Origin: Bryobacterales bacterium
GTDB lineage: Bacteria > Acidobacteriota > Terriglobia > Bryobacterales > Bryobacteraceae
Length of the DNA: 42,553 nucleotides
NCBI GenBank assembly: GCA_019261985.1
Contig: JAFAQY010000014.1
Span: 1-42,553, forward strand
Reading direction: 5' to 3'
Part shown: positions 3,673 to 34,369 of the stretch, one piece after another
Layout of the letters: every line of letters begins with the position of its first letter
How positions within the stretch are numbered: the first letter of the stretch is position 1
The notes under the pieces: generated by a model
Databases searched by the model: none
What the model was told of the DNA's origin: nothing
What the model saw: only the letters and a program-made list of their open reading frames with translations
Position numbers and translations under genes: made by a program

Positions 3673-4959
3673 ATGGAAGTAATCATCTTAGGTGGTGGCC
3701 TGGCCGGCCTTTCCGCCGCTGCCGCGCTCGGTAGCGCGGGTCACCGCATTCGAGTTTTGGAAGCCCGTCCCTATCTCGGGGGCCGCGCCGCATCCTACGA
3801 CTCGGGCGGAGAAACGATCGACAACTGCCAGCACATCCTGATGCGCTGCTGTGTCAACTTGCTGGATTTTTACAGCCGGCTGGGTGTCGATAAGGAAATC
3901 GCGTTTTATCGCGACTTCGTGATCATTGAGCCGGGCGGCAGGCGCAGCGTTTTGACGCGCGGATTCCTTCCCGCTCCATTCCACTTCTCCGCCTCTTTGC
4001 TCGGACTGAAATTTCTTACGTTTTCGGAGAAAGTGGCCCTCATACGGGGCATGCTTGCGATACGCCGGGAATACGGATGTCGGGACGATCTGGACAAGAT
4101 CTCGATGCAGCGGTGGCTGGAAGAGAAACGCCAGCCTAAGCGGGCGATCGAGCGTTTTTGGAGCCAAGTGCTGATCAGCGCGCTCAGCGAAGAAGCCGAT
4201 CGCGTGGCCGCCGCGCACGGTTTTCAAGTCTTCTGGCTGGGATTTATGGCCCGCGCGGATTCTTATGAGATGGGTGTTCCGGCGGTGCCACTCGGAAAAC
4301 TGTACGGCGCGGATTCCTGGCGCGCGCTCGGTGACGTCGATATCCGCCTCCGCATGCCTGTCGAGAAAGTAAATTTTGAAAACGGAAAGGTGCAATCGGT
4401 GATGGCAGGGGGCGAGGAATTGCACGCCGATCATTTCGTTTGCGCGCTTCCGTTCGACCGGCTTCCGGCGCTGGGGATTCCAATTGACGTGAGTGCGTTC
4501 GAGTACTCGCCGATAACCGGGATTCACTTGTGGTTTGACCGCAAAGTAATCGATGTACAGCAAGCCGCTATGCTCGACCGGACGATTCAATGGGTCTTCA
4601 ATAAGAGCGACGGTCGCTATGTGCAGGTTGTTGTAAGCGCCTCCCGAACCTTGATCGAAATGCCGCGCGCCGACGTAATTGCGCTTGCGGTTCGGGAACT
4701 GGCGGAGTTTTTTCCCGCTGTGCGGGAGGCGAATCTTCAGAAGGCGCACGTGGTAAAGGAGGTGCGCGCGGTGTTTTCCGCGCGGCCTGGTTTGGAGCCG
4801 TACCGTCCGCCAACTCGCACCGCTATTCCGAACCTGTTCCTGGCCGGCGACTGGACGCGGTCGGGTTGGCCCGCCACCATGGAGAGCGCCGTTCGCAGTG
4901 GATATCTCGCGGCAGAAGCGATCACGGGCCAAAAGTTCCTGTTATCGGATGTTGGGTAG
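3673..4959 (+). CDS. hpnE: Hydroxysqualene dehydroxylase (HpnE), FAD-dependent
   Basis: The product (428 aa) is a flavin amine-oxidase-type protein of the squalene-associated HpnE family. HpnE reduces hydroxysqualene to squalene, which supplies hopanoid synthesis. The N-terminus has the dinucleotide fold IILGGGLAGLSAAAAL followed by the LEARPYLGGRAAS second FAD motif. The C-terminus has the diagnostic LFLAGDWTRSGWPATMESA. Length is normal. The ATG abuts the repeat element at 3505-3672, so no Shine-Dalgarno sequence is visible. The stop codon TAG lies inside the palindrome at 4956-4981. The partner genes hpnC and hpnD are not in the window. Confidence 0.88.
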   Translation: MEVIILGGGLAGLSAAAALGSAGHRIRVLEARPYLGGRAASYDSGGETIDNCQHILMRCCVNLLDFYSRLGVDKEIAFYRDFVIIEPGGRRSVLTRGFLPAPFHFSASLLGLKFLTFSEKVALIRGMLAIRREYGCRDDLDKISMQRWLEEKRQPKRAIERFWSQVLISALSEEADRVAAAHGFQVFWLGFMARADSYEMGVPAVPLGKLYGADSWRALGDVDIRLRMPVEKVNFENGKVQSVMAGGEELHADHFVCALPFDRLPALGIPIDVSAFEYSPITGIHLWFDRKVIDVQQAAMLDRTIQWVFNKSDGRYVQVVVSASRTLIEMPRADVIALAVRELAEFFPAVREANLQKAHVVKEVRAVFSARPGLEPYRPPTRTAIPNLFLAGDWTRSGWPATMESAVRSGYLAAEAITGQKFLLSDVG

Positions 4960-4981
4960 GACAAGCTTAAGCTTGTCCTAC
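4956..4981. repeat. 26-bp palindrome copy 1, shared 3' end of convergent genes
   Basis: This is a perfect palindrome of half-site GTAGGACAAGCTT and its reverse complement. On the plus strand TAG at 4957-4959 ends hpnE. On the minus strand TAA at 4969-4967 ends the glycosyltransferase gene, whose last residues VGQA are encoded by the repeat. It can form a strong hairpin in either transcript but has no T-tract. Confidence 0.95.
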
Positions 4982-6061
4982 AACAGCACGAAAGAACCGC
5001 AAGGACTCCTCTGCGCACCGCGCCCAGCGATATCTCTCGGCTTGCTGCCGTCCACGCGCAGACAAATCCGCTCGCAGGCTTTCGGTTTCAAGCAATCGGG
5101 TCAGAGCCGACGCAAGCTCGGCGGGGCTGCGCGGATCGATGAGTAGCGCTGCGCCGCCGGTGATCTCGGGCAGGCATGAAGTATTCGAAGTGACCACGGG
5201 AGTGCGCGCGGCCATCGCTTGCGCCACGGGGAAGCCGAAGCCCTCGTATAAAGATGGATACGCAAAAGCCGTTGCGCCGGCGATCAAGCCCGGCAAGTCG
5301 CGCTCGGGGATATACCCCAAATACACAGCTTCGGCGCGCAGGCGGTCCAGCGCAGACGCTGCCGACCACCCAGAAGGCCCGGCGAATACCAAATCGAATT
5401 GTTGGCGCAGCCCGGCCTTCAGTTGGCGCCACGCATCCAGCAGCACCCCAAGATTTTTTCGCGGCTCAATCGTCCCGACATACAACACATACGGCCGCGT
5501 TCGCGACGTGGGCCGCGCGTCGAAGTATTCGTCGGGGACGCCGGAATGAATTGTGGTGATGCGCTCCGGGGCAAGCCCCAGGAGCCGGATCGCATCTTGC
5601 CGCGTATTCTCCGAAACAGCGATAAGGCCGTGCGCGCGAAGCAAGATCCGCTTGGCGAAGTACCGGTCGGCTTGAATGTTGCCGGGCGTGTGAAGCTCGG
5701 GCATGGTTCGTGTGGTCAGATCGTGAAGTGTCGCCGTCAGGCGCGCGCGGGGCGGCGCGCAGTGAACCTGATTCGATGCGTGGAAAACGTCCACTTTTCC
5801 AGCTAGCATACCGACCGCGCCCGTACCCAGCCGGTTGGCCAAATGGATTGCGGCAAGCCGGGAATACGTCGTCCACGCCGAAAAATCGGAGGCATCGTGA
5901 TGGAGAGTCCCGAGATCGTTCAACAGCGGAAAAGCGCCGAGCTCCTCGCCGGGCGCGGCGCAGCGGCGTAGATTTGAAAACCAGTAGTAGAGATAATTCT
6001 TCACGCCTGCGCTTCGCATCAACACGGGCGTGGCGTCGATGGCAACACGAAGCGTCTTCAC
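4967..6061 (-). CDS. GT4-family glycosyltransferase
   Basis: The product (364 aa) is a GT-B fold glycosyltransferase of family 4. It has an N-terminal acceptor domain, an inter-domain stretch with YVLYVGTIEPRKNLGVLLDA, and a donor-binding domain with FAYPSLYEGFGFPVAQAMAA and TPVVTSNTSCLPE. In the EX7E motif the second glutamate is replaced by glutamine (VAQ rather than the usual VLE), which is unusual and may affect activity or donor choice. It is the third gene of a minus-strand operon with asnB and an ArnT-like transferase. Its GTG start overlaps the previous stop as GTGA (6061-6058), implying translational coupling. The last residues VGQA come from the palindrome at 4956-4981. The probable role is sugar transfer in an exported glycan; the substrate is unknown. 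Confidence 0.85.
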   Translation of the reverse strand: MKTLRVAIDATPVLMRSAGVKNYLYYWFSNLRRCAAPGEELGAFPLLNDLGTLHHDASDFSAWTTYSRLAAIHLANRLGTGAVGMLAGKVDVFHASNQVHCAPPRARLTATLHDLTTRTMPELHTPGNIQADRYFAKRILLRAHGLIAVSENTRQDAIRLLGLAPERITTIHSGVPDEYFDARPTSRTRPYVLYVGTIEPRKNLGVLLDAWRQLKAGLRQQFDLVFAGPSGWSAASALDRLRAEAVYLGYIPERDLPGLIAGATAFAYPSLYEGFGFPVAQAMAARTPVVTSNTSCLPEITGGAALLIDPRSPAELASALTRLLETESLRADLSARGRQQAERYRWARCAEESLRFFRAVVGQA

Positions 6062-7926
6062 ACGACTGGCCGGTTCGAAAAGACCAATTTGCCGCCGCTC
6101 TCGATTATGGTATGAAGCATTGATGGTCCGACCAACTTACGCAAGCGCTCCACCTGCGGCTGCTCCACGCAGATGTAGTACAGGTTCGGCGAACGCCAGC
6201 GCTGTTGAAAGCCGGAATCGTCGATAAAAACGTCCCGTGGCGCGTCCGGCGCATAAGAGCCGTACTCCAAATTGTTGACTCGGCCATTCAGCAGCAGAAT
6301 GCGCTTGCCGTGGTATGCGTCGGCGTAAAACACGACCGACGAAAACGTGTAGTACTGGTCATCAAGTATGAGCGATCCGGCCGGGGCCTTATTTAATGCC
6401 GTGGCGAGCGGGCGCGAGGAAAGGTACGGATCGAACGCCACCAGAGCCAGCCGGGCCGCGTGTACGAACAACAGCATCATAATGGCGGCTCCAACAATCG
6501 GCGCTCGCCAGATGCAAAGCGCGCCAACTGCAAATCCGATCCCAGCGACAATCAGGGGCAGCTTTAAATACGCAAATGAAGCCAGCGTCAAATCTCCCAT
6601 GTGGGCGAGTGATAGTGTGTAAGCGCTCGGGTCCTGCTGCGCCAGCGCTTGGGAGATATCGCCGGGCGCGGGCAAATGCCACACCCCGATCAAGATCCCT
6701 CCGATGACCAGAGCCGCGACAGCGGCGATCCCCGTCAACGCCAGCTTTGCGTATCGCCGGTCCGTACTCTCCGCGAGCGCCGAGCCTATCAATAACGCCA
6801 ATGCGGGATAGCACGGCATCGAGTAATACTCCTGTGTCGATGAAAACGTAAAAAACAGCAGCAGAAAGCCGGTCCAGCACAGGCACAACAGGCGCATGCG
6901 CCGGGCGCGCCCGGTTGCCCCGAACGAAAGCTTGGCTACGGAGGGCAAATACACGCTCCAAGGGAACAACCAGAGCAAATGCAATAACCAGAAGTAAAGG
7001 CGCGGAACGGTGTTGTAATCCCGCGGGTAGCGCAGATTCAGGAAGCGCAGCACGTGCTCGTTTATGAAATAGAACCAAAAGAATCCGCGATACTCGCCCG
7101 GACCGCTATGCAGTGTGAAATCGAGGTAGGGCGGATTGCGAATCGTGGCCAGCACGTGCCAAGGGACCGCGATCGCCAGCGCGATCATAGCGCCGCGAAA
7201 GACGTGCAGCCTACGCCATGTTTTACGCGAGCGAATCTCGCCCGTGGCGCCAAGGAAAATCAAAGCCGCCGCGATTGGAAACAATGCCGCGATCAGCCCT
7301 TTGAGTAAGAGGCCAGTTCCGATCGCCGCGGCCATAATGGTCGCCCACAACTCTGGCCGGCGCTCCTCGGGATCGAGCGCTCGTAGAAACGACCACAACG
7401 CCAGCGCGATGGTGGTGGTTATGGTTACATCGGGAATTTGAATCCGTGTGAACAGAAACATTCCGGCGCAAGTGGCCAAAATAAGACCTGTGTAGACGCC
7501 TGCTCGCACAGAGAATGCCCACGCGCCGATGCGAAACGCCAGCCAACACAGGACCACGGCGGAAAGCGCCACGGGAAGCCGCGCGACCCAATCGTGTACG
7601 CCGAGAGTTTTGAACGCAATCGCGATCGACCAATACTTAAGCGGCGATTTTTCCAGGTAGGCGATGCCATCCAATCGCGCCGTGACCCAATCGCCCGAAT
7701 CCAGCATGTTCCGCGCGATTTGCGCCTGCACCGCATCGACATCGTCCATCAAAGCGGGCGGGCTGATAATGCAACCCAGAAAGACGGCGCAAGCGACAGC
7801 GACAACGGCCAACTGCCCTAGGATGAACTGGCGCTGACTGTTACCGGCTCTGCTTCCCGATATATCTTTGGCGGCGCGGTTATTCCCCAGTACCTCATCC
7901 ACTGGAAGAGAACCAGAAGACCCCAT
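6058..7926 (-). CDS. ArnT/PMT-like membrane glycosyltransferase (GT83-type)
   Basis: The product (622 aa as drawn) is a polytopic membrane protein with a dozen or so hydrophobic segments. It has the N-terminal periplasmic loop pattern of ArnT-like lipid-linked sugar transferases: MDDVDAVQAQIARNMLDSGDW followed by LEKSPLKYWSIA. Such enzymes move a sugar from a polyprenyl-phosphate carrier onto lipid A, protein or glycan outside the inner membrane. The ATG at 7926 gives a 109-bp overlap with asnB, and the first roughly 36 residues are hydrophilic and unlike the family. A start near the end of asnB (for example TTG of LAVVAVACAVFLG) is equally possible. Middle gene of the asnB-GT operon; the acceptor is unknown. 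Confidence 0.8.
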   Translation of the reverse strand: MGSSGSLPVDEVLGNNRAAKDISGSRAGNSQRQFILGQLAVVAVACAVFLGCIISPPALMDDVDAVQAQIARNMLDSGDWVTARLDGIAYLEKSPLKYWSIAIAFKTLGVHDWVARLPVALSAVVLCWLAFRIGAWAFSVRAGVYTGLILATCAGMFLFTRIQIPDVTITTTIALALWSFLRALDPEERRPELWATIMAAAIGTGLLLKGLIAALFPIAAALIFLGATGEIRSRKTWRRLHVFRGAMIALAIAVPWHVLATIRNPPYLDFTLHSGPGEYRGFFWFYFINEHVLRFLNLRYPRDYNTVPRLYFWLLHLLWLFPWSVYLPSVAKLSFGATGRARRMRLLCLCWTGFLLLFFTFSSTQEYYSMPCYPALALLIGSALAESTDRRYAKLALTGIAAVAALVIGGILIGVWHLPAPGDISQALAQQDPSAYTLSLAHMGDLTLASFAYLKLPLIVAGIGFAVGALCIWRAPIVGAAIMMLLFVHAARLALVAFDPYLSSRPLATALNKAPAGSLILDDQYYTFSSVVFYADAYHGKRILLLNGRVNNLEYGSYAPDAPRDVFIDDSGFQQRWRSPNLYYICVEQPQVERLRKLVGPSMLHTIIESGGKLVFSNRPVV

Positions 7927-11081: not shown

Positions 11082-11145
11082 CGCACAGCCCGATTGGGAA
11101 CTGGGCGGCCACGGGCACGATGTGCTCAGCCGCGGCCTGCGTTGT

Positions 11146-11886: not shown

Positions 11887-14800
11887 ATGCGTTGGTTTCT
11901 TTCGTTAGCATTGGTTCTCGCTTCCGGCATCGCCCTCGCGCAAAGCGATCGCGGCACCATTACAGGAACGGTTACGGATCCGGCGGGCGCGGTCGTCGCG
12001 AGCGCGCCGGTCCAAGCCCGGAATATCGATACGGCGGTCATCTACACGGGCGAAACGTCCACGACCGGCAACTACACGATCGCGCAGTTGCCGGCCGGGA
12101 ATTACGAAGTGTCTGTAACCGTCATGGGGTTCAAAAAGTTTGTGCGGACTGGCCTCCAAATTCAGGCGACCGCAACCGTTCGCGTCGATATCGCGCTCGA
12201 AGTCGGGGCGGCGACCGAGTCAGTGACCATCACCGAAGCCGCTCCGCTGCTGAATACCGAAAGCGGCGAATTGAGCCATAACGTGGATGTCCGCAAGATG
12301 GACGAGTTGCCCATCCTTGGAATCGGCGGCACGCTCTCCGGCAGCGCGGGGATTCGCAATCCGTACAACATGGTGCTCACGATCCCCGGCGTGAACTACA
12401 CGCCGAATTCGTTGATGCGCGTGAACGGCACGCCCGCGAATTCGCAATCGATTCGCATTGAGGGGCAAGACGCAACCAATACGGGCACGCCCGGCGTGCC
12501 ACAGCAGAACCAGCCCAGCGTGGATGCGATTCAGGAGACTGCGATTCAGACCAGCAATTATGCGGCTGAATACGGGCAAGTGGGCGGCGGCCTGTTCAAC
12601 GTGACCATGCGGTCCGGCACCAACCAGTACCATGGCAGCGGCTACGACTACTTCGTGAACGAAGTTTTTAACGCCGGAAATCCATTCGTCACGGGAAGCC
12701 CGCAGGGCAACCCGCGGCCTCGCGCGCGCAGGAACGATTACGGGTTTACAGTAGGCGGCCCGGTCTGGATTCCCAAGGTTTGGAACGGCCATGACAAGAC
12801 ATTTTTCTTCTTCAATTGGGAGCAGTTCCGCGAGGCGACCAAGGTCAACAATCAGTTTCAAACCATTCCCACCAATGCATACCGGAATGGCGATTTCAGC
12901 GCTGCGATTCTTCCGAACGCGCGCGTGATTGGCACGGACCCAACCGGCGCGCCCATGCTGGAGGGAATGATCTACGATCCGCAGACGCAGGCGGTTGCGG
13001 GGAACGGGCAGGTTTACAGGCTGCAGTTTCCCGGAAATAAAATCCCGATCTCCAGATTCGATCCGGTGGCGGCCAAAATCCAGGCATTATTCCCGGCTCC
13101 CATTGGACCGAACGCGAATGCTCTTACGAATAACTTCGTGAATTCGTACGATACGAACCGCGTTACCGATATTCCATCCGTCAAGATCGATCAGGTTATC
13201 GGTAAAAACGGCCGGCTCTCATTTTTTTGGCAACGGACCAAGACGACCAACCCCAACGGCAATACGATCTTCGGGCGTTCGGATGGCTTGCCCGATCCCC
13301 TCACAGGCGCTCTGGGGACATTCCAGCAGGCGCCGCTGTACCGCCTGAATTACGATCACACGCTGACTCCGACCATTCTGCTTCACTTCGGAGCGGGGTA
13401 CCGCAGCAATTATTTCTTAGTGCCTTCGGTAACCACCACGGGGCAAATCACGAACTATGATGCCAGGGCGCAGCTCGGTCTGCAGGGAGGCTTGGAATAT
13501 AAATGGTTCCCGACCATCACGGGTTTGAACGCATCGAGCGGCGCCGGAGGCGGACCGGTGGCAGGCATCGGCTCGGAAGCCGGCACGAATTCAATTACGC
13601 AGAGCCCTTCCTTCAATTCCAGCCTGACGTGGGTGAAGGGTAACCACACGTATAAGTACGGCGCGGAATTTCGGACCGAAGGCTATCCGCCGAGGGTTGA
13701 CGGCAACACCCTCGGTGTCTACAATTTCTCTCCCGCTGAAACGGGACAGCCGTTCCAAACCACGAGCGTGAACGGCTCGAACGTGGGCTTGGGCTATGCC
13801 AGCTTTCTTTTGGGCTTGGTCGACAACATCAGCATCAGCCGGCCCACGACTCCACGCATGGGCAAAAAGCAGCTAGGCCTATATGTCCAGGACTCCTGGA
13901 AGATTACCCGCAAGTTCACCTTGGATTACGGACTGCGGTACGACTATTCCACCTACTTGCAGGAACAGTACGGACGCGCGCCGGAGTTTTCCGCGACCAC
14001 GCCGAATCCGTCGGTGGGCGGAATTCTCGGGGCTGCGATTTTCGATGGGTCGGGGCCAGGCCGCTGCAATTGCAATATCGCGCATAATTACCCTTTCGCG
14101 TTCGGCCCCAGGATGGGCTTGGCATATCAAATCGATCCAAAGACCGTGCTCCGCGCGGGATTCGGAATTGTGTATGCGGGAACGGAAACCAACAACAACG
14201 CCGCGGGCGGACTGGCCGCTTCCACGGCGAGCAATTTCCCGACGACTTTCGGTTCGCCCGTTACTACACTTGCGGCTGGTTATCCCGCGAACGACTACCC
14301 GCCGGTCTGGCCCAATTTCAATCCTGGCCTGTACCCTTCGTCCGCGCCGGTTCCCGGACCGTTTGGCGGCGCGATGATGGACCCGAACGCCGGCCGGCCC
14401 GCCCGGCAATATCAATGGAGCATTGGTTTCCAGCGCGAGATCGCGCGCGATATGGTGGCGGAGGTCTCCTACGTCGGCAATCGCGGCGTGTGGTGGCAGG
14501 CGCCCGGGTTGCTCAATCTCGATGCAATCACGCCTACGATTTTGGCTGCGCATGGCTTGAATCTTAGCGATCCGAACACGCGGACGTTGCTGACGTCCAC
14601 GCTCAGTTCGCCGATCGCGAAGCAGATGGGGTTCAGCAATCCTCCCTACCCTGGTTTCCCCGCCGGCCAGTTGGTCGCGCAAGCCCTTCGCCCATTTCCC
14701 CAATTTACTTCCATTCCGGTTTATTGGGACCCCCTCGGCAAGAGCTGGTACGATTCGCTGCAAATGAAGCTGACCAAGCGTTTGTCTCGCGGGCTGTTCT

Positions 14801-15573
14801 TTCTAAGCACGTTTACATGGTCTAAGGCGCTGACGCTCGGCTCGGAGATCGGCGAGCCGAACCCCGGCACCAGCGGCGGAGCGCTGGTGAACGACGTGTT
14901 CAACCGGAATCAGAACAAGTACATCTCGGCGTATGACCGGCCGTTCGATTTCAATACTTCGCTGACCTACACGACGCCAGGTTTTTCGGGCGGCAAGAAA
15001 GTTTTCTCGTACGCGATAAAGGACTGGACCATCGGCGCGAATCTTGAATACGCAAGCGGCGTGCCGCTTCAGGTTCCGAACGCGCAGAGCAACCTGAACA
15101 GCTACCTGTTCCAGGGCGCGAGCTTCGCGAACCGCGTCCCCGGAGTGCCTCTATATACGGTGGACCTCAACTGCCACTGCTACGACCCGAATAAGACGTT
15201 CGTGTTGAATCCGGCCGCGTGGGTCGATCCCGCGCCGGGTCAATGGGGCGCATCGCCCGCTTATTACAGCGACTACCGCGCCCAGCGCCGTCCGCGCGAG
15301 AACATGAGCTTCGGCCGAACTTTCCCGTTTGGCGCCGAGCGCCGGTACGCGTTCAGCATCCGCATGGAGTTCTCAAATATATTCAACCGCGCGTTCTGGG
15401 GCGATCCGAGTGGAACGTCGATCACCAACGCGAAGCTTCTGCAAGCCTATCTGCCGAACGGCAACACGTCGGCTGGATTCGGCCGTGTGCTTACCACGGC
15501 TCCGAGCGCGTTCGGCAGTGTGTTCAATTTGTATCCGCGCCAAGGCGTGCTGGTAGGCAGGTTTACATTTTGA
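11887..15573 (+). CDS. Oar-like TonB-dependent receptor with carboxypeptidase-regulatory-like domain
   Basis: The product (1228 aa) has a signal peptide (residues 1-18, cleavage ALA before Gln19). A CarboxypepD_reg-like beta-sandwich follows at about 22-105 (GTITGTVTDPAGAVV), then a plug-like region at about 110-250 (MRVNGTPANSQSIRIEG, VGGGLFNVTMRSGTNQYHG). The rest is a very long outer-membrane beta-barrel ending in phenylalanine (VLVGRFTF), as outer-membrane barrels do. This architecture is abundant in Acidobacteria and related to Myxococcus Oar. Ligands are mostly unknown; uptake of large glycans or peptides is often proposed. A clear promoter and a strong ribosome-binding site precede it. 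The stop codon is followed directly by the palindrome at 15574. Confidence 0.9.
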   Translation: MRWFLSLALVLASGIALAQSDRGTITGTVTDPAGAVVASAPVQARNIDTAVIYTGETSTTGNYTIAQLPAGNYEVSVTVMGFKKFVRTGLQIQATATVRVDIALEVGAATESVTITEAAPLLNTESGELSHNVDVRKMDELPILGIGGTLSGSAGIRNPYNMVLTIPGVNYTPNSLMRVNGTPANSQSIRIEGQDATNTGTPGVPQQNQPSVDAIQETAIQTSNYAAEYGQVGGGLFNVTMRSGTNQYHGSGYDYFVNEVFNAGNPFVTGSPQGNPRPRARRNDYGFTVGGPVWIPKVWNGHDKTFFFFNWEQFREATKVNNQFQTIPTNAYRNGDFSAAILPNARVIGTDPTGAPMLEGMIYDPQTQAVAGNGQVYRLQFPGNKIPISRFDPVAAKIQALFPAPIGPNANALTNNFVNSYDTNRVTDIPSVKIDQVIGKNGRLSFFWQRTKTTNPNGNTIFGRSDGLPDPLTGALGTFQQAPLYRLNYDHTLTPTILLHFGAGYRSNYFLVPSVTTTGQITNYDARAQLGLQGGLEYKWFPTITGLNASSGAGGGPVAGIGSEAGTNSITQSPSFNSSLTWVKGNHTYKYGAEFRTEGYPPRVDGNTLGVYNFSPAETGQPFQTTSVNGSNVGLGYASFLLGLVDNISISRPTTPRMGKKQLGLYVQDSWKITRKFTLDYGLRYDYSTYLQEQYGRAPEFSATTPNPSVGGILGAAIFDGSGPGRCNCNIAHNYPFAFGPRMGLAYQIDPKTVLRAGFGIVYAGTETNNNAAGGLAASTASNFPTTFGSPVTTLAAGYPANDYPPVWPNFNPGLYPSSAPVPGPFGGAMMDPNAGRPARQYQWSIGFQREIARDMVAEVSYVGNRGVWWQAPGLLNLDAITPTILAAHGLNLSDPNTRTLLTSTLSSPIAKQMGFSNPPYPGFPAGQLVAQALRPFPQFTSIPVYWDPLGKSWYDSLQMKLTKRLSRGLFFLSTFTWSKALTLGSEIGEPNPGTSGGALVNDVFNRNQNKYISAYDRPFDFNTSLTYTTPGFSGGKKVFSYAIKDWTIGANLEYASGVPLQVPNAQSNLNSYLFQGASFANRVPGVPLYTVDLNCHCYDPNKTFVLNPAAWVDPAPGQWGASPAYYSDYRAQRRPRENMSFGRTFPFGAERRYAFSIRMEFSNIFNRAFWGDPSGTSITNAKLLQAYLPNGNTSAGFGRVLTTAPSAFGSVFNLYPRQGVLVGRFTF

Positions 15574-15599
15574 GTAGGACAAGCTTAAGCTTGTCCTAC
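15574..15599. repeat. 26-bp palindrome copy 2
   Basis: This is a perfect second copy of half-site GTAGGACAAGCTT plus reverse complement. It starts immediately after the receptor TGA and ends 2 bp before the rsmB ATG, filling essentially the whole intergenic space. Confidence 0.95.
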
Positions 15600-22340: not shown

Positions 22341-22363
22341 GGACAAGCTTAAGCGTGTCCTAC
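22341..22363. repeat. Palindrome copy 3 (imperfect)
   Basis: GGACAAGCTTAAGCGTGTCC followed by TAC matches the 26-bp palindrome with one arm base changed. Read on the minus strand it encodes the final VGHA and the TAA stop of the DHA2 exporter. Confidence 0.9.
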
Positions 22364-23986
22364 TTCCGCCACAGCGGGCTGCTTCTCGTGACTTGCCTTG
22401 AGCCGCACGTTTTTCAGCGCAAAGTGCAGAATGACCACTGCGCTCATAATCACGGCGCTCGCAAAAAAGATCGATTGCAGACCGTGAATCATCGCCGCCG
22501 GTACGGCCGACATCAGCTTGTGCAGCAAATCCAAGCCGCCCGGATATTGGCCGAACTCTTGTTCGAGCCTCGGCCGTAGCTGCGGCAGCATCAGAGGGTA
22601 CTTGACAAAGGGCGTTAGCGCTACGGCGGGCGTTCCCGGCGGGACCGCGCTAGTGAAATCCTGATGGAAGCGCGTCAGGAACACGCTGCCGAACGTCGCC
22701 ACTCCAACCGTGCTGCCGATGGCGCGAAAGAAAGTCGTAGACGAAGTTGCCGCCCCCATCTGATGCCTCGGCGCGACGTTCTGCACGGCCACGGTGTACA
22801 CCGGATTCAGCAACCCCATGCCGAATCCCGCAATGATCATGCCCAGTATTACGTAGCTGTGCGTTGTAGCCGCGTCCATGCGCGCGAACAAAATCATGCC
22901 GATGGCCACCAGCACGGAGCCCGTCACCGCCGCCAGCTTGTAGCTCCGCAGTTTCAGATTAAGTTGCCCGGAGATGATGCTCCCGGCCACCGCCCCCATC
23001 ATTAGCGGCGTCATCAAGTTCCCCGAGCGCGTCGCGGAAACGCCCAAAACGCCCTGCATGAATAGCGGCAGGTAAATGATCACCCCGAACATCCCCATGC
23101 CCAACACGAACACGCAGATCGAGCAGATGGCGATCACTGGTTGCTTGAACAACGTAAGTGGGATCAGCGGTTCCACGGCCCTAGTCTCGAAGAACAAAAA
23201 GGCGGCCAGCATCACACCCGACAAAACCAGAAGATATTCCACTCGCGGCGAGGACCATCCATATTCCGTCACCCAAGTAAGCGCGAGCAGCAGCGAAACG
23301 ATGCAGATGGTAAGCGTCACCACGCCCGCCCAGTCCAACACGCGCTTGATTCCTTCCGGGTGTAGGGCAGGGAACTGCGAGTAAATGGCCGCGATCACCA
23401 GTACGCCCACGGGAAGGTTCACGTAAAAGCAAGCGCGCCAGGAAATGTGATCGGTAAGCCAGCCGCCAAGGGTTGGGCCGAAGATGGAAGCCAAACCCCA
23501 CACGGCTGCGAAAAGCCCTTGATACCGGCCGCGCTCCGCCGGCGAGAAGATATCGCCGATGATGATGAAGATCAGCCCCATCAAAATTCCGCCGCCCAAG
23601 CCCTGCAGGCCCCGAAACACAATCAACTGATTCATCCCATCCAGTGGAAGAAACGTAAGCTCGCCCGCGGCGCCGCACAGCGCGGACGCTCCCACAAACA
23701 ATGCCGCGCCGGCCAGCAGAAACCACTTACGCCCATAAATGTCCGACAGTTTGCCGAAGATCGGCACCGCGATTGTCGAGCTGAGCAAATATGCCGTCGC
23801 GACCCATGGATAGCGGTCGAAGCCCGAAAGCGTCGCGATGATTCGCGGCTCGGCTGTGCCCACGATGGTTTGATCGAGCGCCGATAGCAGTAGCCCGAGC
23901 ATGAGGCCAGCCATCGTCCACATTAATTGCGGCCGCGTGAGCGGGATCAAGCCGGAAGTATGGTATTTGATCTCCGAGGTAGGCAC
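22349..23986 (-). CDS. DHA2-family (EmrB/QacA-type) MFS drug exporter
   Basis: The product (545 aa) is a proton-driven major facilitator with about 14 predicted membrane segments. It carries motif A as FGKLSDIYGRK, motif C as FGPTLGGWL, and the DHA2 signature LDQTIVGTAEPRI, where glutamate replaces the usual leucine. Such proteins export hydrophobic drugs or metabolites across the inner membrane. Its ATG is only 21 bp from the divergent VWA gene start, so one or both promoters must lie within coding sequence. The last residues VGHA come from the palindrome. The substrate is unknown and no adjacent membrane-fusion protein gene is seen. Confidence 0.9.
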   Translation of the reverse strand: MPTSEIKYHTSGLIPLTRPQLMWTMAGLMLGLLLSALDQTIVGTAEPRIIATLSGFDRYPWVATAYLLSSTIAVPIFGKLSDIYGRKWFLLAGAALFVGASALCGAAGELTFLPLDGMNQLIVFRGLQGLGGGILMGLIFIIIGDIFSPAERGRYQGLFAAVWGLASIFGPTLGGWLTDHISWRACFYVNLPVGVLVIAAIYSQFPALHPEGIKRVLDWAGVVTLTICIVSLLLALTWVTEYGWSSPRVEYLLVLSGVMLAAFLFFETRAVEPLIPLTLFKQPVIAICSICVFVLGMGMFGVIIYLPLFMQGVLGVSATRSGNLMTPLMMGAVAGSIISGQLNLKLRSYKLAAVTGSVLVAIGMILFARMDAATTHSYVILGMIIAGFGMGLLNPVYTVAVQNVAPRHQMGAATSSTTFFRAIGSTVGVATFGSVFLTRFHQDFTSAVPPGTPAVALTPFVKYPLMLPQLRPRLEQEFGQYPGGLDLLHKLMSAVPAAMIHGLQSIFFASAVIMSAVVILHFALKNVRLKASHEKQPAVAEVGHA

Positions 23987-27494: not shown

Positions 27495-27511
27495 AGAGTG
27501 TTTCAGCCCAG

Positions 27512-27853: not shown

Positions 27854-27888
27854 TGTAATGCTGCCGGGCGGTCGGGACGCACGGCGTG

Positions 27889-27924: not shown

Positions 27925-27959
27925 TCCACGATCGCGATTTGCGGTATCATTTTTCCTTA

Positions 27960-28568
27960 ATGGCCAAAATGCTGTACCTGGCAGCTGGGCTTGCCGCAGC
28001 CGCCCTTTGGTCTTTCGGGCAAGACGCACAACCGTCGCCGGCGCAACTGGCGATTCTGATGAAGTTCGATCTTCAGCCGCCGCCTTCCGTCATCGAGTCG
28101 ATGCAGCGCGAGGTGGAGGCGCTATTCGAGCCGGCGGGCATCAAAGTCGCATGGCGCCGCGTGGAGGATAACGAAGGAACCGAGCTCTTTCCGCACGTGG
28201 TTGTGATCCGCGTCCGCGGCGAGTGCCGTACGCATCCTGCAACGCTGCGTGAGCTTGAGCCGCTGGTCGACAATCTTGAGCTGGCGCACGCCGCGGTTCG
28301 CAACGGGCAGGCGCTTCCCTTCGCGGAGGTCCAGTGCGATCGCGTGTCCGCTTTTTTGCGGCCTTGGCGAAGGGCCGAGCAAGCGGCGTCTCTCGGCGTA
28401 GCCATGGGACGCGTGATCGCTCACGAGCTGTTTCACATGCTCACCAATACTCTCACCCATGGAGACGGCGCGCTGTCGAAGGCCAGTGTCACTTCGCAGG
28501 AACTCGACGTTAAGGGCGACGGTTTTTCGCAAGACGAACTCGAGCTTTTCAAAAAATCCGTCAAATGA
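27960..28568 (+). CDS. Exported small protein with HExxH metallopeptidase motif
   Basis: The product (202 aa) starts at the ATG at 27960 with a signal peptide (MAKMLYLAAGLAAAALWSFG). A longer frame from 27858 would run through palindromic repeat DNA and is rejected. Near the C-terminus VIAHELFHMLTNTLTHGDG contains HELFH, a zincin-type HExxH site, and an aspartate in a helix-loop stretch follows. The N-terminal part (KFDLQPPPSVIESMQREVEALFEPAGIKVAWR) is typical of small secreted acidobacterial proteins with this motif. Protease activity is plausible but unproven. Confidence 0.7.
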   Translation: MAKMLYLAAGLAAAALWSFGQDAQPSPAQLAILMKFDLQPPPSVIESMQREVEALFEPAGIKVAWRRVEDNEGTELFPHVVVIRVRGECRTHPATLRELEPLVDNLELAHAAVRNGQALPFAEVQCDRVSAFLRPWRRAEQAASLGVAMGRVIAHELFHMLTNTLTHGDGALSKASVTSQELDVKGDGFSQDELELFKKSVK

Positions 28569-28574
28569 CGAGGC

Positions 28575-28596
28575 GGGGCAGGCCGAGGCCTGCCCC
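28575..28596. terminator. 22-bp GC-rich palindrome between convergent genes
   Basis: Arms GGGGCAGGCC and GGCCTGCCCC are separated by GA. It lies between the HExxH gene stop (28568) and the stop of the convergent Oar-like receptor (28607). It could act as a bidirectional hairpin terminator and resembles the GTGGGGCAGG ends of the MITE-like elements. No T-tract is seen. Confidence 0.55.
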
Positions 28597-28606
28597 AATA
28601 CTCGGG

Positions 28607-31600
28607 TTAGAACAATATGCGCGCTGCAACCTGGAAGGTGCGTGGCGCGAATCCGTTCACCAGATTCGAGCTCTGCAGCGATGGGAACCCGAAGTTCGGG
28701 TTTCCTAGATTGGCGTACGGATTTCCATACACGGGCGAGTTGAGAATATTGAACCCCTCGCCGCGCAATTCCATCCGCGCCCGTTCCGCGATACGAAAGG
28801 ACTTGAACAGAGACAGATTATACGTCTGGAAATTTGGCCCGCGGAATGCGTTCCGCAGATTGGGTCCCAACGAGTCCGCCCCCGGACTGGTAAACAGCGC
28901 GGGATTGAAGCTCGCTTGGCCGTTGATGCCCACCGCTCCCACAGGCGCGGCAAACACAGCGGGTATACCAGGACAGTTGCAGGCGGTGGCGGGCGCCAAT
29001 ACAGAAAAGGGCGTGCCCGTTCCCCACTGGAACAGCCCATTCAGCGACCAACCCGCCAGAATCTGTCCCATCCATCCGGTGTTCAAGTGGTTCGTCCCAG
29101 TACCGAACGGAATCTCGAACACATGGCTGATGGTCAACATTTGCGTTCGATCCCAATCCGCCGGTCCGTAGTTGGCGGCCCGGCTGAACGGGTTAACTAG
29201 AAAGGTGCCGTGATCCAGCGCCTTGCTCCACGTGTATGCCACCGTGAACCCGAGGCCTTGCGAAAGCCGCTTGGTCAAGTTCACTTGCAGCGCATTGTAG
29301 TTGCTCGTCAGGCCTTGGCCGTACAGGTTCACGCCAGTGTTGCTGCTTACTACTGGAATAACCGGGGTTGGAGAACCACCGTCTGCCGTTGCGACCCTGT
29401 CCGCAGCGGTGAACGGCAGTCCGGCGAGTCCGGTGCCCGGGGCGGCCACGTTGAGCGCCTGAACAAATGGAAGCTGGCGCCCGACGTTGCCTACGTACGC
29501 GGCATCGAACAGGAAGCCGCGCCTGAGGTCCTGCTGGACCATGAGGTAGTAGGTCTGGAGGTAAGGAGTTTTGTTTCCTGTCGCCAGATTCAATGGAATG
29601 TTAGGAGCGGCGACGGTCGATCCGATGGGTCCAGGCGTTGTCGGCGTAACCGTGGGGATCGAGAAAGGAACCGCGGCGAACGATCCATTGATCAAACCGG
29701 TCTGAGCCCCGAATCCCGCCTGATTAATCCCAGACAATGTGAACGGTAACGGGAAGTATTGGATCGCGTAACTCGCCCGGACGACCGTGCGTTCCATTGG
29801 ATGGTACGCGAAGCCGACGCGCGGAGAGAAGTTGTTGAAATCGTAATTGTGCAGCTGGCTCCCGAACGTCACCGTTCCGGTCAGGGGGTTATATAACAGC
29901 GCGCCATTTCCGGAGCTGGTTGAAACCGGGCTGAACAGGTCATAGCGCAAGCCCAGTTCCATCGTGAACCTCGGGAATAGCCGCACGGTATCCGCGACAA
30001 ATCCGGAATATAGATTCTGCCGGTAGGTGGGAACGTTAGCGTAGTTGAACACGCCGCTGGCGACAGGCGCTCCGAGCAAGAATGCCGCGAGCGAGTTGAA
30101 CGGCGTAGTCATGAGAGGCACGCTTGCTGCTTCCGCCGTGGAGAGTGTCGCGCCGGGTCCGAAGAACAAGGTTCCGTTGGGCCCGAACAGCGAACTCCTC
30201 CATCCGTTGGCCTGAAGCGCGCGGATGTCGGTTCCGAAGCGGACGTCATGAATTCCACGCGCCCAGTGGAACACCGCCGAGCCTTCATACGTGTTGTCGA
30301 ACATCTTGCTGGGGATATTGGCGGCCGCGCCGAGCGTACCAAATCCCTCGATGTTGATGGTCGGTAGTGAGGTGAATCCATTTGCGGCCAGTAGCGGCGC
30401 AAGCGATCCAGTGACGCCGGTAGCATTGATGTTGTTCCGGTAACGGTTGTAGGTGAAGCGGAGCTCGCCAATAATGCCATGGCTATTCGCGACCAGAGCG
30501 GCGGTCGCGTGATGGTTGCGCAGCCCGGAGGCTGTGCCGCCGCCGACGATCGGGCCGAACAATGAGCCTTGGGTAGCGTTGAAGTACGAGAACTGGTAAT
30601 CCAAGAATACGGAATACGCGTCCGAGAAACGATGATCCAGGCGCCCCGTCACCACACTGCTGTTATCGGTGAACGGAATGACGGCCTGTGTGTTGTTAAA
30701 GAAGCCGGGCAGGTTGGGCGCCGGAAGCGTAGCCAGGATCGCCTGCGATAGAGGGTTGATGTCGCCCGCCGGAATGACCGTGCCAAACGCCGGGCTAAAA
30801 ATGGTGGCTCCAGTGCCGGTGAAATTTCCGTTCACGATGGCAGCGGTTGGCAGTGTGCCGAGTACAGGTGTGCCGTCTCTGTACCGCGTTGCTTCATAGT
30901 TGATAAAAAGGAAGGTGTGGTCTGGTTTGATTGCGCCTCCCACGCCTGCGCCCGTTTGCCAGTAGTGCAAAGGCGAACTAGGGTTGGCTCCGAAAAAAAG
31001 CGGATTCCTAGCCTGGAAGTAGCCGGGCGAGAAGAAGCCGTACACCTGGCCATGGAGACCATTGGTTCCCGGGCGTGTGAAGACGTTGTCGATAGAGCCG
31101 CCGGCGAAACCCTGTTCCGCGCGGTAGTTCGCGGTTTGAATTTGCAGCTCGCGAATATAATCGCGGGGCGGAATTGAAATGTTCAAATCGCCTGTAAATG
31201 GCTCGCGAACCGTGTCTCCGTCCAAGGTGCTGTCGTTGGAATACGCCGGTTGCCCGTTCGTATTCCATTGCCGGCTGCGCTGCGGATCAGCGGTAACGCC
31301 TAGGGTCGTCTGGATGGCCGAGAACGGCGGAGTTATACCCGGCATTAGATTCATCAGCTGCAGGTAGTTTCGATCGAAAACGGGTAGGTTCTCAAGGATA
31401 GCCTGACCATAGCCGCGCTGGATTTCCGGCGGAGTATCTTGCGTCTCTACTGCATCCGCATTGATTTCCACCGTTTCGACGGCTGGACCTGCTTCGAGCC
31501 TCGCCGCGATTCGAACGCTGTTGCCGGAGATAACTTGAATTTGCTCCTGCACCATGCGCTTGAATCCGGCCGTTTCCACTTCGACCCGGTAGGCTCCGGG

Positions 31601-31807
31601 CGGAATGGCGGCCATGAACGTTCCGTCCGCTCCGGTGACTACCCTTTGGGACAAATTGGTGCTCAGATTCGTAATCGTGATTACGGAATTCGGCACCGGT
31701 TTGCCGGAAGGATCGGTGATCGTACCGACTAGAGTGCCTGCTTGACCCCAACATATAAGTGCCCCAAACAGACAAAATATGAGACCCACAATAAATTTAC
31801 GATTCAT
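28607..31807 (-). CDS. Second Oar-like TonB-dependent receptor
   Basis: The product is 1066 aa from the ATG at 31807, which encodes a proper signal peptide (MNRKFIVGLIFCLFGALICW) with GAGG upstream. Upstream in-frame ATGs at 31882 and 31822 would add a hydrophilic lead and are less likely. A CarboxypepD_reg-like domain (GTLVGTITDPSGKPVPN) is followed by a plug-like region with NTNGQPAYSNDSTLDG and a long beta-barrel ending FQVAARILF. It belongs to the same family as the receptor at 11887 but is clearly diverged and 160 residues shorter. Ligand unknown. The minus-strand LPKTA protein gene lies upstream. Confidence 0.9.
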   Translation of the reverse strand: MNRKFIVGLIFCLFGALICWGQAGTLVGTITDPSGKPVPNSVITITNLSTNLSQRVVTGADGTFMAAIPPGAYRVEVETAGFKRMVQEQIQVISGNSVRIAARLEAGPAVETVEINADAVETQDTPPEIQRGYGQAILENLPVFDRNYLQLMNLMPGITPPFSAIQTTLGVTADPQRSRQWNTNGQPAYSNDSTLDGDTVREPFTGDLNISIPPRDYIRELQIQTANYRAEQGFAGGSIDNVFTRPGTNGLHGQVYGFFSPGYFQARNPLFFGANPSSPLHYWQTGAGVGGAIKPDHTFLFINYEATRYRDGTPVLGTLPTAAIVNGNFTGTGATIFSPAFGTVIPAGDINPLSQAILATLPAPNLPGFFNNTQAVIPFTDNSSVVTGRLDHRFSDAYSVFLDYQFSYFNATQGSLFGPIVGGGTASGLRNHHATAALVANSHGIIGELRFTYNRYRNNINATGVTGSLAPLLAANGFTSLPTINIEGFGTLGAAANIPSKMFDNTYEGSAVFHWARGIHDVRFGTDIRALQANGWRSSLFGPNGTLFFGPGATLSTAEAASVPLMTTPFNSLAAFLLGAPVASGVFNYANVPTYRQNLYSGFVADTVRLFPRFTMELGLRYDLFSPVSTSSGNGALLYNPLTGTVTFGSQLHNYDFNNFSPRVGFAYHPMERTVVRASYAIQYFPLPFTLSGINQAGFGAQTGLINGSFAAVPFSIPTVTPTTPGPIGSTVAAPNIPLNLATGNKTPYLQTYYLMVQQDLRRGFLFDAAYVGNVGRQLPFVQALNVAAPGTGLAGLPFTAADRVATADGGSPTPVIPVVSSNTGVNLYGQGLTSNYNALQVNLTKRLSQGLGFTVAYTWSKALDHGTFLVNPFSRAANYGPADWDRTQMLTISHVFEIPFGTGTNHLNTGWMGQILAGWSLNGLFQWGTGTPFSVLAPATACNCPGIPAVFAAPVGAVGINGQASFNPALFTSPGADSLGPNLRNAFRGPNFQTYNLSLFKSFRIAERARMELRGEGFNILNSPVYGNPYANLGNPNFGFPSLQSSNLVNGFAPRTFQVAARILF

Positions 31808-32119
31808 CGATTCTAACCTCATTTTTGGTTTATTCCACTTTGAGCGATGGATAGGCGGTATCTGGCTGCAGGTATTTTCCACCGGCCCCAGATCCAGCTT
31901 TCAGCGCGCCGAACCTCAGATTTCAACCCCGCCCGCGAGGACGGAGTCTAATGCCGCGGCATCCGGCAACACTGTTCCACGCGCCCGATGGAATCTTCTG
32001 CGCAGCAGTGGGGCGGGCATGCGCTCGAATGCCCGCCTGCCTACCGCAAACAACACGGACGGAAGACCCCAGCCGTCCGTGCAGCCGGCGCAAAATGAGC
32101 GCGGTTTAAAAGCGCTCCG
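31808..32119. other. Intergenic region upstream of the second Oar-like receptor
   Basis: About 310 bp without a recognisable gene. It holds the receptor's probable promoter and leader, and a perfect 9-bp inverted repeat at 32054-32081 that could end the upstream minus-strand gene. A short GGGCAT...ATGCCC repeat is also present near 32016-32035. Confidence 0.5.
32054..32081 (-). terminator. Putative hairpin terminator after the LPKTA protein gene
   Basis: CACGGACGG (32054-32062) and CCGTCCGTG (32073-32081) form a 9-bp stem with a 10-nt loop, 38 bp beyond the stop of the minus-strand gene at 32120. The following minus-strand sequence TTGTTTG is only a weak T-tract. Confidence 0.5.
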
Positions 32120-32821
32120 CTACATCCGGAAGCGTCCGGAAACACGTAGCGCGAACGCAGCCGCCAACGATCCGAGCCCGCCGACCAGCGCCAAAGGCCA
32201 GTCAGATGCTGTCTTCGGCAGCTCGTGTGGACCTGGAGCGGGCGCCGGAGCGGGTTGCTCTTCCGCTTGCGGAGGAGCCGGCGGAGGCGGTGTTGCTTGA
32301 GCCTCCTCTCGCGGTTGCTCCGGTGGAGCCGCTGGCGCTGGTGGCGGCGTCACTTCAGCCTGCGCCGGTGGCATCGTGAACGTCGCACTGAGTGTGAGCG
32401 GCTGTTGAAGTTCCTCGATTCGAGCCAGCACTGCATCTGGAAGCGCGAACCGATAGCCGAATTGTTTCCCCGCCACCCAGATGCGATCCAGATAATAATC
32501 GTTGCCGACCCGCTGCAGAATCACTTTCGTTTGTTGATAGGGTATGCCTCGCACAGACCTCTCGCTGATGGCCGACGCGCTGAATCTCCGGTCGGTTTTT
32601 TCGCTTACAAGGATGACGTTCGAAGCATTTCCCGCGCTGGGAAGCTGACGCATATCATACTTGCCCGCCGCGAGCTTCTGCCCGCCTACCCACGTATTCT
32701 CCGGCAGCTCAACGATGATTTTGTCGAAGGCTCTGCTTTGTGCCCAACATTGGATTGATGTGCCGGGAGCCACGATTAACAGCGCTCCCAACGTCCATTT
32801 CGAATATCTATGAAAACTCAT
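32120..32821 (-). CDS. Exported protein with C-terminal LPXTG-like sorting signal
   Basis: The product (233 aa) has an N-terminal signal peptide ending near CWAQ. A globular part of about 120 residues follows (FDKIIVELPENTWVGGQKLAAGKYDMRQLP), then a Pro/Ala/Glu-rich linker (about 155-198). It ends with LPKTA at 201-205, a hydrophobic stretch at about 209-225 and basic residues RVSGRFRM. That tripartite ending is exactly the layout of sortase substrates, unexpected in a Gram-negative cell. The globular domain resembles small acidobacterial beta-rich secreted proteins; I do not recognise a named family. Confidence 0.75.
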   Translation of the reverse strand: MSFHRYSKWTLGALLIVAPGTSIQCWAQSRAFDKIIVELPENTWVGGQKLAAGKYDMRQLPSAGNASNVILVSEKTDRRFSASAISERSVRGIPYQQTKVILQRVGNDYYLDRIWVAGKQFGYRFALPDAVLARIEELQQPLTLSATFTMPPAQAEVTPPPAPAAPPEQPREEAQATPPPPAPPQAEEQPAPAPAPGPHELPKTASDWPLALVGGLGSLAAAFALRVSGRFRM

Positions 32822-33243
32822 AATGCCTTATACGTCCTTTTCTCTTTCCGCCCCCTGATTGCAATCCCAGTTTTCGATATGAATCCAGAGCATGATGCGA
32901 CCTAGGGAGTGCAATCTCTAACCCAAACGAAGTTTCGCGACATGATGTGTTGCCGGGGCTCACCGGCGCTGGCCAACTCAAAAACTCGTTTCCCCGCCCG
33001 CCCGCAGGTCACGCCAGGCCGTGGGTTAGAAGCCACGGCAATTGTTTCAAACAATCCTGCATCGGAAAGTTCTTTCCGCGCGATTCTGAATTTCTTACAG
33101 ACTGTCATGAACAAAATGCACATGGGATTTGTAGACCGCTTTGTTTGTACGCGCGCGCGGTCTTAGTAGTGGGGGCGAAAAGTACCGGAACGATTCTGTA
33201 TTTCATAACACCCGGGTTTGCTAGCATTGGTTGTTAACACCGG
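32822..33243. other. 422-bp intergenic region between divergent genes
   Basis: It separates the LPKTA protein gene from yajQ. No coding frame here looks real. Two adjacent inverted repeats occur: GCCGTGG...CCACGGC at 33018-33039 and the palindrome ATTGTTT-C-AAACAAT at 33041-33055. It probably also holds both promoters; I could not place them confidently. Confidence 0.45.
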
Positions 33244-33744
33244 ATGCCTGAAAACACCTTCGACGTTGTTTCAAAGATCGAATTACCTGAGGTATCGAAC
33301 GCCGTGCAGCAGGCGATCAAGGAGATCCAGCAGCGCTACGACTTGAAAAATAGCCACTCGTTAATCGAGTTGCGCGAGAAGGAAAATAAAATCCTGCTAC
33401 AGAGTCAGGATGAATTCAAACTCAAGGCCGTTACGGAAGTACTCGAGCAAAAATTAGTGAAGCGCAAGGTGCCGCTGAAGGGGCTCAATTACGGGGCCAT
33501 CTTGCCTGCCGCCGGGTCCACCGTGCGGCAGGAGATTTCGTTGCAGCAGGGCATTCCGGTGGAGAAGGCGCGGGAGATCGTCCGCGTAATTAAAGACAGC
33601 AAGAAGAAGGTCCAGGCTTCGATTCAGGGAGACTTCGTGCGCATCGCCGGCAAGGATCGCGACACCTTGCAAGACGTAATCCAATTGCTGCGGAACACCG
33701 ATTTCGGCATCGACATGCAGTTCACGAATTACCGCACGAACTAA
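33244..33744 (+). CDS. yajQ: YajQ-family cyclic-di-GMP/nucleotide-binding protein
   Basis: The product (166 aa) has the conserved YajQ beginning NTFDVVSKIELPEVSNAVQQA and the middle block LKGLNYGAILPAAGSTVRQEI, ending in LLRNTDFGIDMQFTNYR. The family has a double ferredoxin-like fold. In Xanthomonas and Pseudomonas, members bind cyclic-di-GMP and act with transcription regulators; in many bacteria the role is unclear. Length is normal. It overlaps the next gene by one base (TAATG), so the two are likely co-translated. Confidence 0.93.
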   Translation: MPENTFDVVSKIELPEVSNAVQQAIKEIQQRYDLKNSHSLIELREKENKILLQSQDEFKLKAVTEVLEQKLVKRKVPLKGLNYGAILPAAGSTVRQEISLQQGIPVEKAREIVRVIKDSKKKVQASIQGDFVRIAGKDRDTLQDVIQLLRNTDFGIDMQFTNYRTN

Positions 33745-34361
33745 TGCCGCGGCGTATAGAGACGCTGTTCTTGCAAGGGCCGGCAGGCAGGTTGGAAGCT
33801 ATTCTCGAAGCGCCCGAGGATGGTGAGCCGCGCGAAACCGCTCTGGTCTGCCATCCCCATCCCCAGCACGGCGGCACCATGCACAACAAGGTGGTCCACA
33901 GAATCGCACGCGGACTGCGCCATGCGGGAGCGGCGGTGCTTCGCTTCAACTATCGGGGCGTGAATATGAGTGAAGGCGAATACGCGCATGGCGAGGGTGA
34001 GCGCGAAGACGCACATGCCGCGCTCGATTATTTACGTACCCGTTTTCCAAATCTCCCGTTCACATTGGCCGGATTTTCATTTGGTTCCCGGATCGTTCTG
34101 CGCCTGGCGTGTTCGGGCATCGGCGCGCGGCGAGCGATCGCGGTCGGTCTCCCGACCAACTGGGACCATTCGTATCTTGAAGGCTGCGCCGTGCCGAAGA
34201 TCTTTATTCAAAGCACCCACGATCAATTCGGACCGGCTGAAGATCTGCAACGCCTCGTAGACCGCTTGCCGGAACCCAAGCGGCTCGTCTTCGTCGAGGC
34301 CGCCGATCATTTTTTCTTGGGCGGCTTGGATCAATTGGAAGCCGCGGTAGGACAAGCTTAA
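33744..34361 (+). CDS. Alpha/beta hydrolase
   Basis: The product (205 aa) is a small alpha/beta hydrolase of the dienelactone-hydrolase-like type. It has LVCHPHPQHGGTMHNKVV with the oxyanion-hole region, nucleophile serine in GFSFGS, acid in THDQFGP and catalytic histidine in ADHFF. Substrate unknown. It is coupled to yajQ by a TAATG overlap. The final VGQA and the TAA stop are encoded by palindrome copy 4, so the natural C-terminus was probably altered when that repeat arrived. Confidence 0.85.
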   Translation: MPRRIETLFLQGPAGRLEAILEAPEDGEPRETALVCHPHPQHGGTMHNKVVHRIARGLRHAGAAVLRFNYRGVNMSEGEYAHGEGEREDAHAALDYLRTRFPNLPFTLAGFSFGSRIVLRLACSGIGARRAIAVGLPTNWDHSYLEGCAVPKIFIQSTHDQFGPAEDLQRLVDRLPEPKRLVFVEAADHFFLGGLDQLEAAVGQA

Positions 34362-34369
34362 GCTTGTCC
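34347..34369. repeat. Palindrome copy 4, left of the IS110 element
   Basis: GTAGGACAAGCTT plus the complementary arm as far as GTCC matches the 26-bp family; after that the sequence departs (CAGG instead of TAC). The departure lies about 10-15 bp before the likely left end of the IS110 element. Confidence 0.85.

Follow-up and report, generated by a model that had tools for sequence, protein, structure and literature searches.

The question raised by the DNA stretch analyzed here, a window of 42,553 bp from a Bryobacterales bacterium (assembly GCA_019261985.1, contig JAFAQY010000014.1, positions 1 to 42,553 of the forward strand), is why one short palindrome stands exactly at the 3′ ends of unrelated genes. 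A preliminary description, made from the sequence alone, had located the palindrome at four places, and all four were recovered: a perfect palindrome of 26 bp that carries a GTAG tag at either end and a TA loop at 4956 to 4981, a second perfect 26-bp palindrome with both tags at 15574 to 15599 (neither assigned to a strand), and two TA-loop copies with a single tag, one at 22341 to 22363 (minus strand, one arm base changed, no plus-strand tag) and one at 34347 to 34369 (plus strand, second tag absent). The best explanation that we can offer, and one that we hold somewhat likelier to be right than wrong, is that these are members of a family of repetitive extragenic palindromic (REP) sequences, probably mobilized by a REP-associated tyrosine transposase (RAYT), whose copies inserted 3′ of a GTAG that was already present in the target, as at TAG stop codons.

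The repeat is a GTAG-tagged REP/REPIN family, in line with the earlier suspicion of a REP-like unit. In the 6.49-Mb genome, its core is matched, with at most two mismatches, 217 times forward and 207 times in reverse (palindromic copies count on both strands), and the core pattern read backwards gave 0 matches genome-wide on either strand. In the window, the half-site is matched 15 times with up to three mismatches against 5.9 expected, a number reached in 0 of 100 shuffles; a chance origin of the window copies was rejected on the basis of the shuffles and the reversed control. As in known families of GTAG-tagged REPs, the tag stands beside a palindrome of 20 to 40 bp, the copies are numerous and mostly extragenic, and they flank a RAYT gene; as in REPINs, two inverted REPs occur with GTAG facing outward. 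The tagged 23-mer was found in 1 of 61 genomes, the host itself, and 22 of the 60 others belong to the same genus; its reversed control had one match, in one relative.

Form and placement were determined in a sample of 416,526 bp (103 merged stretches, 6.4% of the genome), which was selected for holding copies, so that ratios of occupied to free sites compare classes only; genes in it were called with our own script, not with a standard gene finder. The sample contains 173 cores, 89 of them intergenic and 22 within called genes, the remainder contacting stops or edges; at least one tag accompanies 151 of the 173, in a sample partly selected by tag. Two loop forms exist. Exact tagged copies with a TC loop number 90 in the genome, and the 26-mer has 34 sites within two mismatches, 11 of them exact. 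Among the sampled TC-loop copies, 109 have one tag, 10 have none, and 0 have two, whereas the TA-loop copies have two tags in 12 cases, one in 18, and none in 1; 12 of the 18 one-tag TA-loop copies are a single base away from having a second tag, compared to 8 of the 109 TC-loop copies. Part of the sample had been picked via the 26-mer, and the forms were therefore recounted by eye on contigs C1 to C85, where, among the exact cores listed, both tags (within one base) were present in 14 of 18 TA-loop cores versus 2 of 49 tagged TC-loop cores. The 139 one-tag copies form 27 pairs with GTAG outward (spanning 47 to 94 bp), 0 with GTAG inward, and 10 tandem pairs; 54 of the 139 lie in outward pairs and 85 outside them. 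Since joining the outer halves of a left REP and of its inverted partner gives the 26-mer, a collapsed REPIN would be a natural origin of the double-tagged palindrome.

A gene of the RAYT/TnpA-REP type, as the preliminary description had envisaged, is indeed present and intact on contig C119, and it is bracketed by the GTAG repeat, with two upstream copies in the same orientation and inverted copies downstream. Its open frame of 202 aa (195 from the first ATG) matches Y1_Tnp (PF01797; E = 7.7e-10) and contains NHVH, FWQ, and YIRYNP, i.e., the HUH and Y...NP signatures of RAYTs when compared with the motif table excerpted from PMC6006769. The GTAG repeat is probably mobilized by this cognate enzyme, a Y1/HUH transposase related to the TnpA of IS200/IS605. 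Its best-scoring match among the 60 other genomes is 52% identical; the three closest of 33 named relatives are from Acidobacteria (one Bryobacteraceae, one Bryobacterales), which contribute 10 of the 33, including one from Terriglobia. Five Y1_Tnp matches lie above the family cut-off in the genome. The weakest holds a stop, and the other four have open frames of 178 to 202 aa, each with its own flanking palindrome, so that by inspection the genome holds four RAYT-REP pairs. Two of the RAYT-like genes (L027 and L028) lie close to each other on contig C52, flanked by GTGGAGCAGGCTTCAGCCTGC and GTGGGGCAGGCCTTAGCCTGC. A scan of 14 RAYT loci for tagged hairpins found nothing at 7; at locus L440, from a Bryobacterales genome, the flanks carry the repeats GTAGGACAAGCC...GGCTTGTCC, of the GTAGGACAAGCCTCCGGCTTGTCC type, which are near the GTAG family in sequence.

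Placement at gene ends is non-random. When the position of the tag is given as an offset from the same-strand stop, 62 of 163 tag-ends fall on four offsets: 38 at −4, where the TAG of the tag is the stop of the gene, 12 at −1, where tag and stop overlap by one base (taG|TAG), 9 at −15, where GTA-GGA-CAA-GCT-TAA reads V-G-Q/H-A and stop, and 3 at 0. Other offsets account for 29 tag-ends, and 72 have no nearby stop. Random placement relative to stops, the outcome that the preliminary description had set against its own view, was thus not seen in the genome-wide sample. As to stop usage, genes touching a copy end in TAG (54), TAA (11), or TGA (5), and genes without a copy in TGA (104), TAA (79), or TAG (75).

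Does the repeat bring the TAG stop, or did it find one? Orthologous gene ends were compared in same-genus relatives, all of which lack the tagged repeat (sets of 10 and 4 genomes plus extra loci; matches as listed). A match was kept if its identity reached 50%, if no more than 15 end residues were unaligned, and if its score came to 80% or more of the best; orthologues are best matches, with paralogues possible among them. Usable orthologues were missing for 4 of the 38 genes at −4 (all 38 queried), 1 of 9 at −15 (not queried), 3 of 13 controls, 8 of 12 at −1 (7 not queried), and 2 of 3 at offset 0 (not queried). In the 34 genes of the −4 class with orthologues, the stop position is matched in at least one orthologue in 21 and in the majority in 17; for the controls (13 drawn, 10 with orthologues), the figures are 6 and 5 of 10, i.e., the stops of the two groups are conserved to the same extent. 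Furthermore, when repeat and GTAG were deleted in silico, 16 of the 17 genes with a majority-conserved stop had none left at the ancestral position, and 3 of four further −4 genes with some matching orthologue lost theirs likewise (a deletion that retains GTAG keeps the stop by construction). Since these stops are conserved like those of controls and yet depend on the tag, the TAG stop probably predates the repeat, which, judged from these alignments, would have landed 3′ of an existing (A/G)GTAG. GTAG is found at 14 of 61 conserved ends of orthologues and at 32 of 258 copy-free stops in the host.

The occupancy of GTAG sites points in the same direction. AGTAG is occupied in 22 and free in 14 cases at stops, compared to 53 occupied and 33 free between genes (P = 1), and therefore availability alone accounts for the peak at sites preceded by A. 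The base before the tag matters: A precedes 53 of 80 occupied intergenic GTAGs versus 33 of 155 free ones (P = 2e-11). In coding sequence, 33 sites are occupied and 1,328 free, compared to 80 and 155 between genes; we read this about 20-fold lower coding occupancy as purging.

In our model, new copies would be inserted 3′ of a GTAG that the target already has, with a preference for A (or G) before it, and the 5′ tag of a copy would be, at least in part, target sequence. Genes ending in xxG-TAG would offer a GTAG at which insertion leaves the protein unaltered, so that stop codons may serve as landing pads, and copies landing within genes would mostly be purged. If the landing point follows an in-frame GTA near a gene end, the TA-loop form would supply GTA-GGA-CAA-GCT-TAA, and the last residues would become V-G-Q-A; a TC-loop copy would stay open in this frame, in which hardly any is found. 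The double-tagged 26-mer would be two outer REPIN halves joined. When Pseudomonas REPINs are excised, the final ~6 bp of their conserved sequence stay behind at one end, and it has been proposed that the tail pairs with the target (both from the excerpted text of PMC3116915); both fit an insertion 3′ of (A/G)GTAG. The wider proposal, that REPs take their GTAG from the target because the RAYT inserts 3′ of (A/G)GTAG, that the known stop-supplying habit is thereby reversed, and that the 26-mer is a collapsed REPIN and possibly the smallest such mobile unit, is put forward tentatively, with confidence a little short of even.

Several observations weigh against insertion at existing GTAGs. Over all GTAGs, the odds ratio for occupancy at stops relative to intergenic sites is 2.3 (P = 0.003); over purine-preceded GTAGs, it is 2.1 (P = 0.03). 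The one-base overlaps fit the model poorly and remain unexplained by it: TA|GTAG is occupied in 12 cases and free in 0, with ~1 free expected by composition, so that strict targeting of existing GTAGs underpredicts this class. The 17 genes at −4 without a majority match have orthologues that are mostly longer in 12 cases, shorter in 2, and mixed in 3 (the five controls without a majority match split 2, 2, and 1), and some of these genes may be real truncations, which could not arise from a preexisting in-frame TAG. At −15, the valine that the model predicts before insertion is seen for 1 of 8 genes in the majority of its orthologues, and for a second gene as valine or isoleucine. The control set is small, and two genes of the −4 class (on C110 and C16) are paralogues whose comparisons drew on identical genes of the relatives. 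For a target rule like that of IS200/IS605 elements, with insertion 3′ of a fixed tetranucleotide, orthologue ends and site occupancy lend indirect support, the relatives matching at ~64 to 77% DNA identity. Finally, the work on TnpA-REP, in the part of PMC8266576 consulted, assigns a guide role to GTAG and puts the cleavage sites at CT or CA; it does not describe insertion following GTAG.

The most serious alternative, appreciably less probable in our view yet the main rival, is that the whole tagged unit, GTAG included, inserts widely (after A or G) and that the copies retained by selection are those supplying a stop, TAG in one frame and, for the TA-loop form, TAA in a second. This corresponds to the harmless landing imagined in the preliminary description, and the frames speak for it: near gene ends, nearly all copies supply a stop, with 8 TA-loop copies at −4 and 9 at −15, and with TC-loop copies numbering 27 at −4 and, within 60 nt, 1 in the GTA frame (P = 2e-4; a second one, 109 nt from its stop, was left uncounted). 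The −1 class, in which 4 of the 12 genes have orthologues and 3 of these share the stop codon with them, is as expected from insertion of the unit into TAA or TAG, the G of the tag restoring the stop; the −15 class is a true coding insertion, and the lean of nonconserved −4 genes toward longer orthologues (12 versus 2) fits truncation. However, −4 genes retain an orthologue's end as often as controls do, and since removal of unit and tag destroys the stop in 16 of 17, the native stop would need to have vanished simultaneously. Moreover, a TC-loop copy entered from the hairpin side gives TGA in one frame, yet 2 such cases are listed (C19:61827 and C82:182340). Orthologue ends, deletion, and occupancy together disfavor selection alone as the cause of the −4 peak.

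Much less probable is retention of the repeat at gene ends for a hairpin that terminates or shields transcripts, the history of insertion being secondary. The 26-mer does fold into an 11-bp hairpin (−17.4 kcal/mol, z = −6.9), placement at 3′ ends is strong, and enterobacterial REPs are a precedent in that they stabilize upstream mRNA. Against it, a T-rich tract follows the hairpin in 2 of 78 gene-end copies, AGTAG occupancy at stops equals that between genes, and the family is absent from the 60 relatives; in its context, the copy at 22341 to 22363 folds no better than shuffles (z = −0.8). An intrinsic terminator as the general role was rejected on the count of T tracts, and the transcript-end hairpin considered in the preliminary description is unlikely as a terminator for most copies, although stabilization of mRNA by the repeat is possible. 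That V-G-Q-A is a functional C-terminal tag common to unrelated proteins, also considered there, has next to no probability: nine gene ends do read V-G-Q-A or V-G-H-A, but the residues are forced by the repeat DNA read in one frame, and, among the matches listed, 0 of 68 orthologue rows for 8 of the 9 genes (some rows being one gene twice) have them, by which a conserved VGQA C terminus was rejected and orthologues sharing VGQA without the repeat were not seen.

The notion that the repeat writes C termini thus holds for the V-G-x-A class (9 tag-ends) and fails in general, the −4 stops being conserved like controls. In this class, rewriting is clear and consists of a short replacement close to the old protein end, in a minority of copies: of 63 comparisons, 59 show an orthologue that continues for 1 to 10 residues beyond the landing point (53 of them for 1 to 5), and 4 show one that ends 1 to 2 residues before it. 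Three of the nine V-G-x-A ends lie in the window, where this class is therefore overrepresented. All three were read in the shared frame noted earlier, as VGQA, VGHA, and VGQA followed by TAA. The copy at 4956 to 4981 lies between two convergent genes and contacts both stops: its tag contains the TAG stop of an hpnE-like gene of the amine oxidase family (3673 to 4959, plus strand; stop at the equal aligned position in 3 of 4 orthologues), and it encodes the VGQA-TAA of a GT4 glycosyltransferase gene (4967 to 6061, minus strand), 12 orthologues of which stop 1 to 3 residues beyond the landing point, all without VGQA. The copy at 22341 to 22363 encodes the VGHA-TAA of an MFS exporter gene (22349 to 23986, minus strand), whose single counted orthologue (L204) stops 3 residues beyond the landing point without VGHA; a further relative (L205), below the 50% identity cut, also lacks it. 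The copy at 34347 to 34369 encodes the VGQA-TAA of an alpha/beta hydrolase gene (33744 to 34361, plus strand), and 9 orthologues run 4 to 10 residues beyond the landing point. The second copy, at 15574, begins directly after the TGA of an outer-membrane beta-barrel/TonB-type receptor gene (11887 to 15573, plus strand; offset 0), as had been described, with the next called gene 2 bp further on and an identical end position in 4 of 4 orthologues. Pfam backs all five family assignments; HpnE and DHA2 are narrower names from the preliminary description, for which Pfam supports the families only, and enzyme names beyond Pfam matches are our reading of the sequence.

Outside the window, a TA-loop copy provides the terminal VGQA of a UvrA-like gene, so named from its sequence (L124, contig C64, 10165); the consulted part of PMC3733652 singles out REPs in repair genes. 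Long reading frames run uninterrupted through outward repeat pairs at C44:83531, C90:61606, C102:64992, and C103:55386, and whole REPINs may thus encode internal protein segments. Another REP-like family, tagged with GTGG (GTGGGGCAGGTTGCCAACCTGC), forms an inverted pair at 3504 to 3542 and 3635 to 3673 of the window, with a related stretch at 41650 to 41695; on contig C47, its sequence is also found upstream of a different intact RAYT gene. Positions 41531 to 41859 of the window hold direct repeats of 79 bp (82% identical) and 43 bp (93% identical). About 275 bp after the fourth copy begins an IS110/IS116/IS902-family transposase gene (34645 to 36012); members of this group insert in REPs elsewhere, and no REP remnant was seen beyond the far end of the gene.

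If the tag is target sequence, the choice of site becomes predictable from the genome sequence, and much of the placement of REPs at 3′ ends requires no selection for regulation. The family is also a clean example of mobile DNA altering protein ends, and of how limited such alteration is.

How does this compare with known systems? In four 50-kb stretches of Escherichia coli K-12, 0 of 22 REP heads are at the −4 position (set by hand against annotated gene ends). Of three E. coli loci searched, psiE is polymorphic (3,243 of 5,426 genomes hold at least 80% of the query), and its shorter alleles, like those of ugp, align ambiguously in the REP. Among the open-access titles and abstract openings surveyed, none states that a stop codon is a REP landing site, and the dissemination of REPs was still termed poorly understood in 2021 (abstract of PMC8266576). 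With the Rickettsia palindromic elements, as summarized in the consulted part of PMC3733652, the repeat shares the encoding of protein residues by a palindrome; those elements occupy many protein positions, whereas in the present family it is the final four residues that are clearly encoded, bar a few outward pairs in long reading frames. With the REPINs of Pseudomonas fluorescens (PLoS Genet 2011, PMC3116915, in its excerpted passages), for which asymmetric excision leaving part of one end is described and long palindromes arising from deletion inside REPINs are mentioned as unpublished, it shares paired inverted REPs; here, however, 54 of 139 one-tag copies are in outward pairs, other copies are hairpins that stand singly or carry two tags, and there are statistics on targets. 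The TnpA-REP/RAYT systems of E. coli, Stenotrophomonas, and Marinomonas (NAR 2021, PMC8266576) likewise place a Y1 HUH transposase beside GTAG REPs, and GTAG is important and guide-like for TnpA-REP; the sections consulted do not mention that copies insert next to a GTAG of the target, and the C119 RAYT is described here from its sequence. Closest are the GTAG-tagged REP families of Di Nocera, De Gregorio, and Rocco (2013, PMC3733652), which, as far as the consulted part of that paper goes, have in common with the present family the tag, the short palindrome, high copy number, inverted pairs, and placement at 3′ ends, and whose termini often provide a TAG stop. The sequence family and its host are new here, a perfect double-tagged palindrome with a TA loop forms a distinct subset, and the orthologues suggest that the TAG stop came first.

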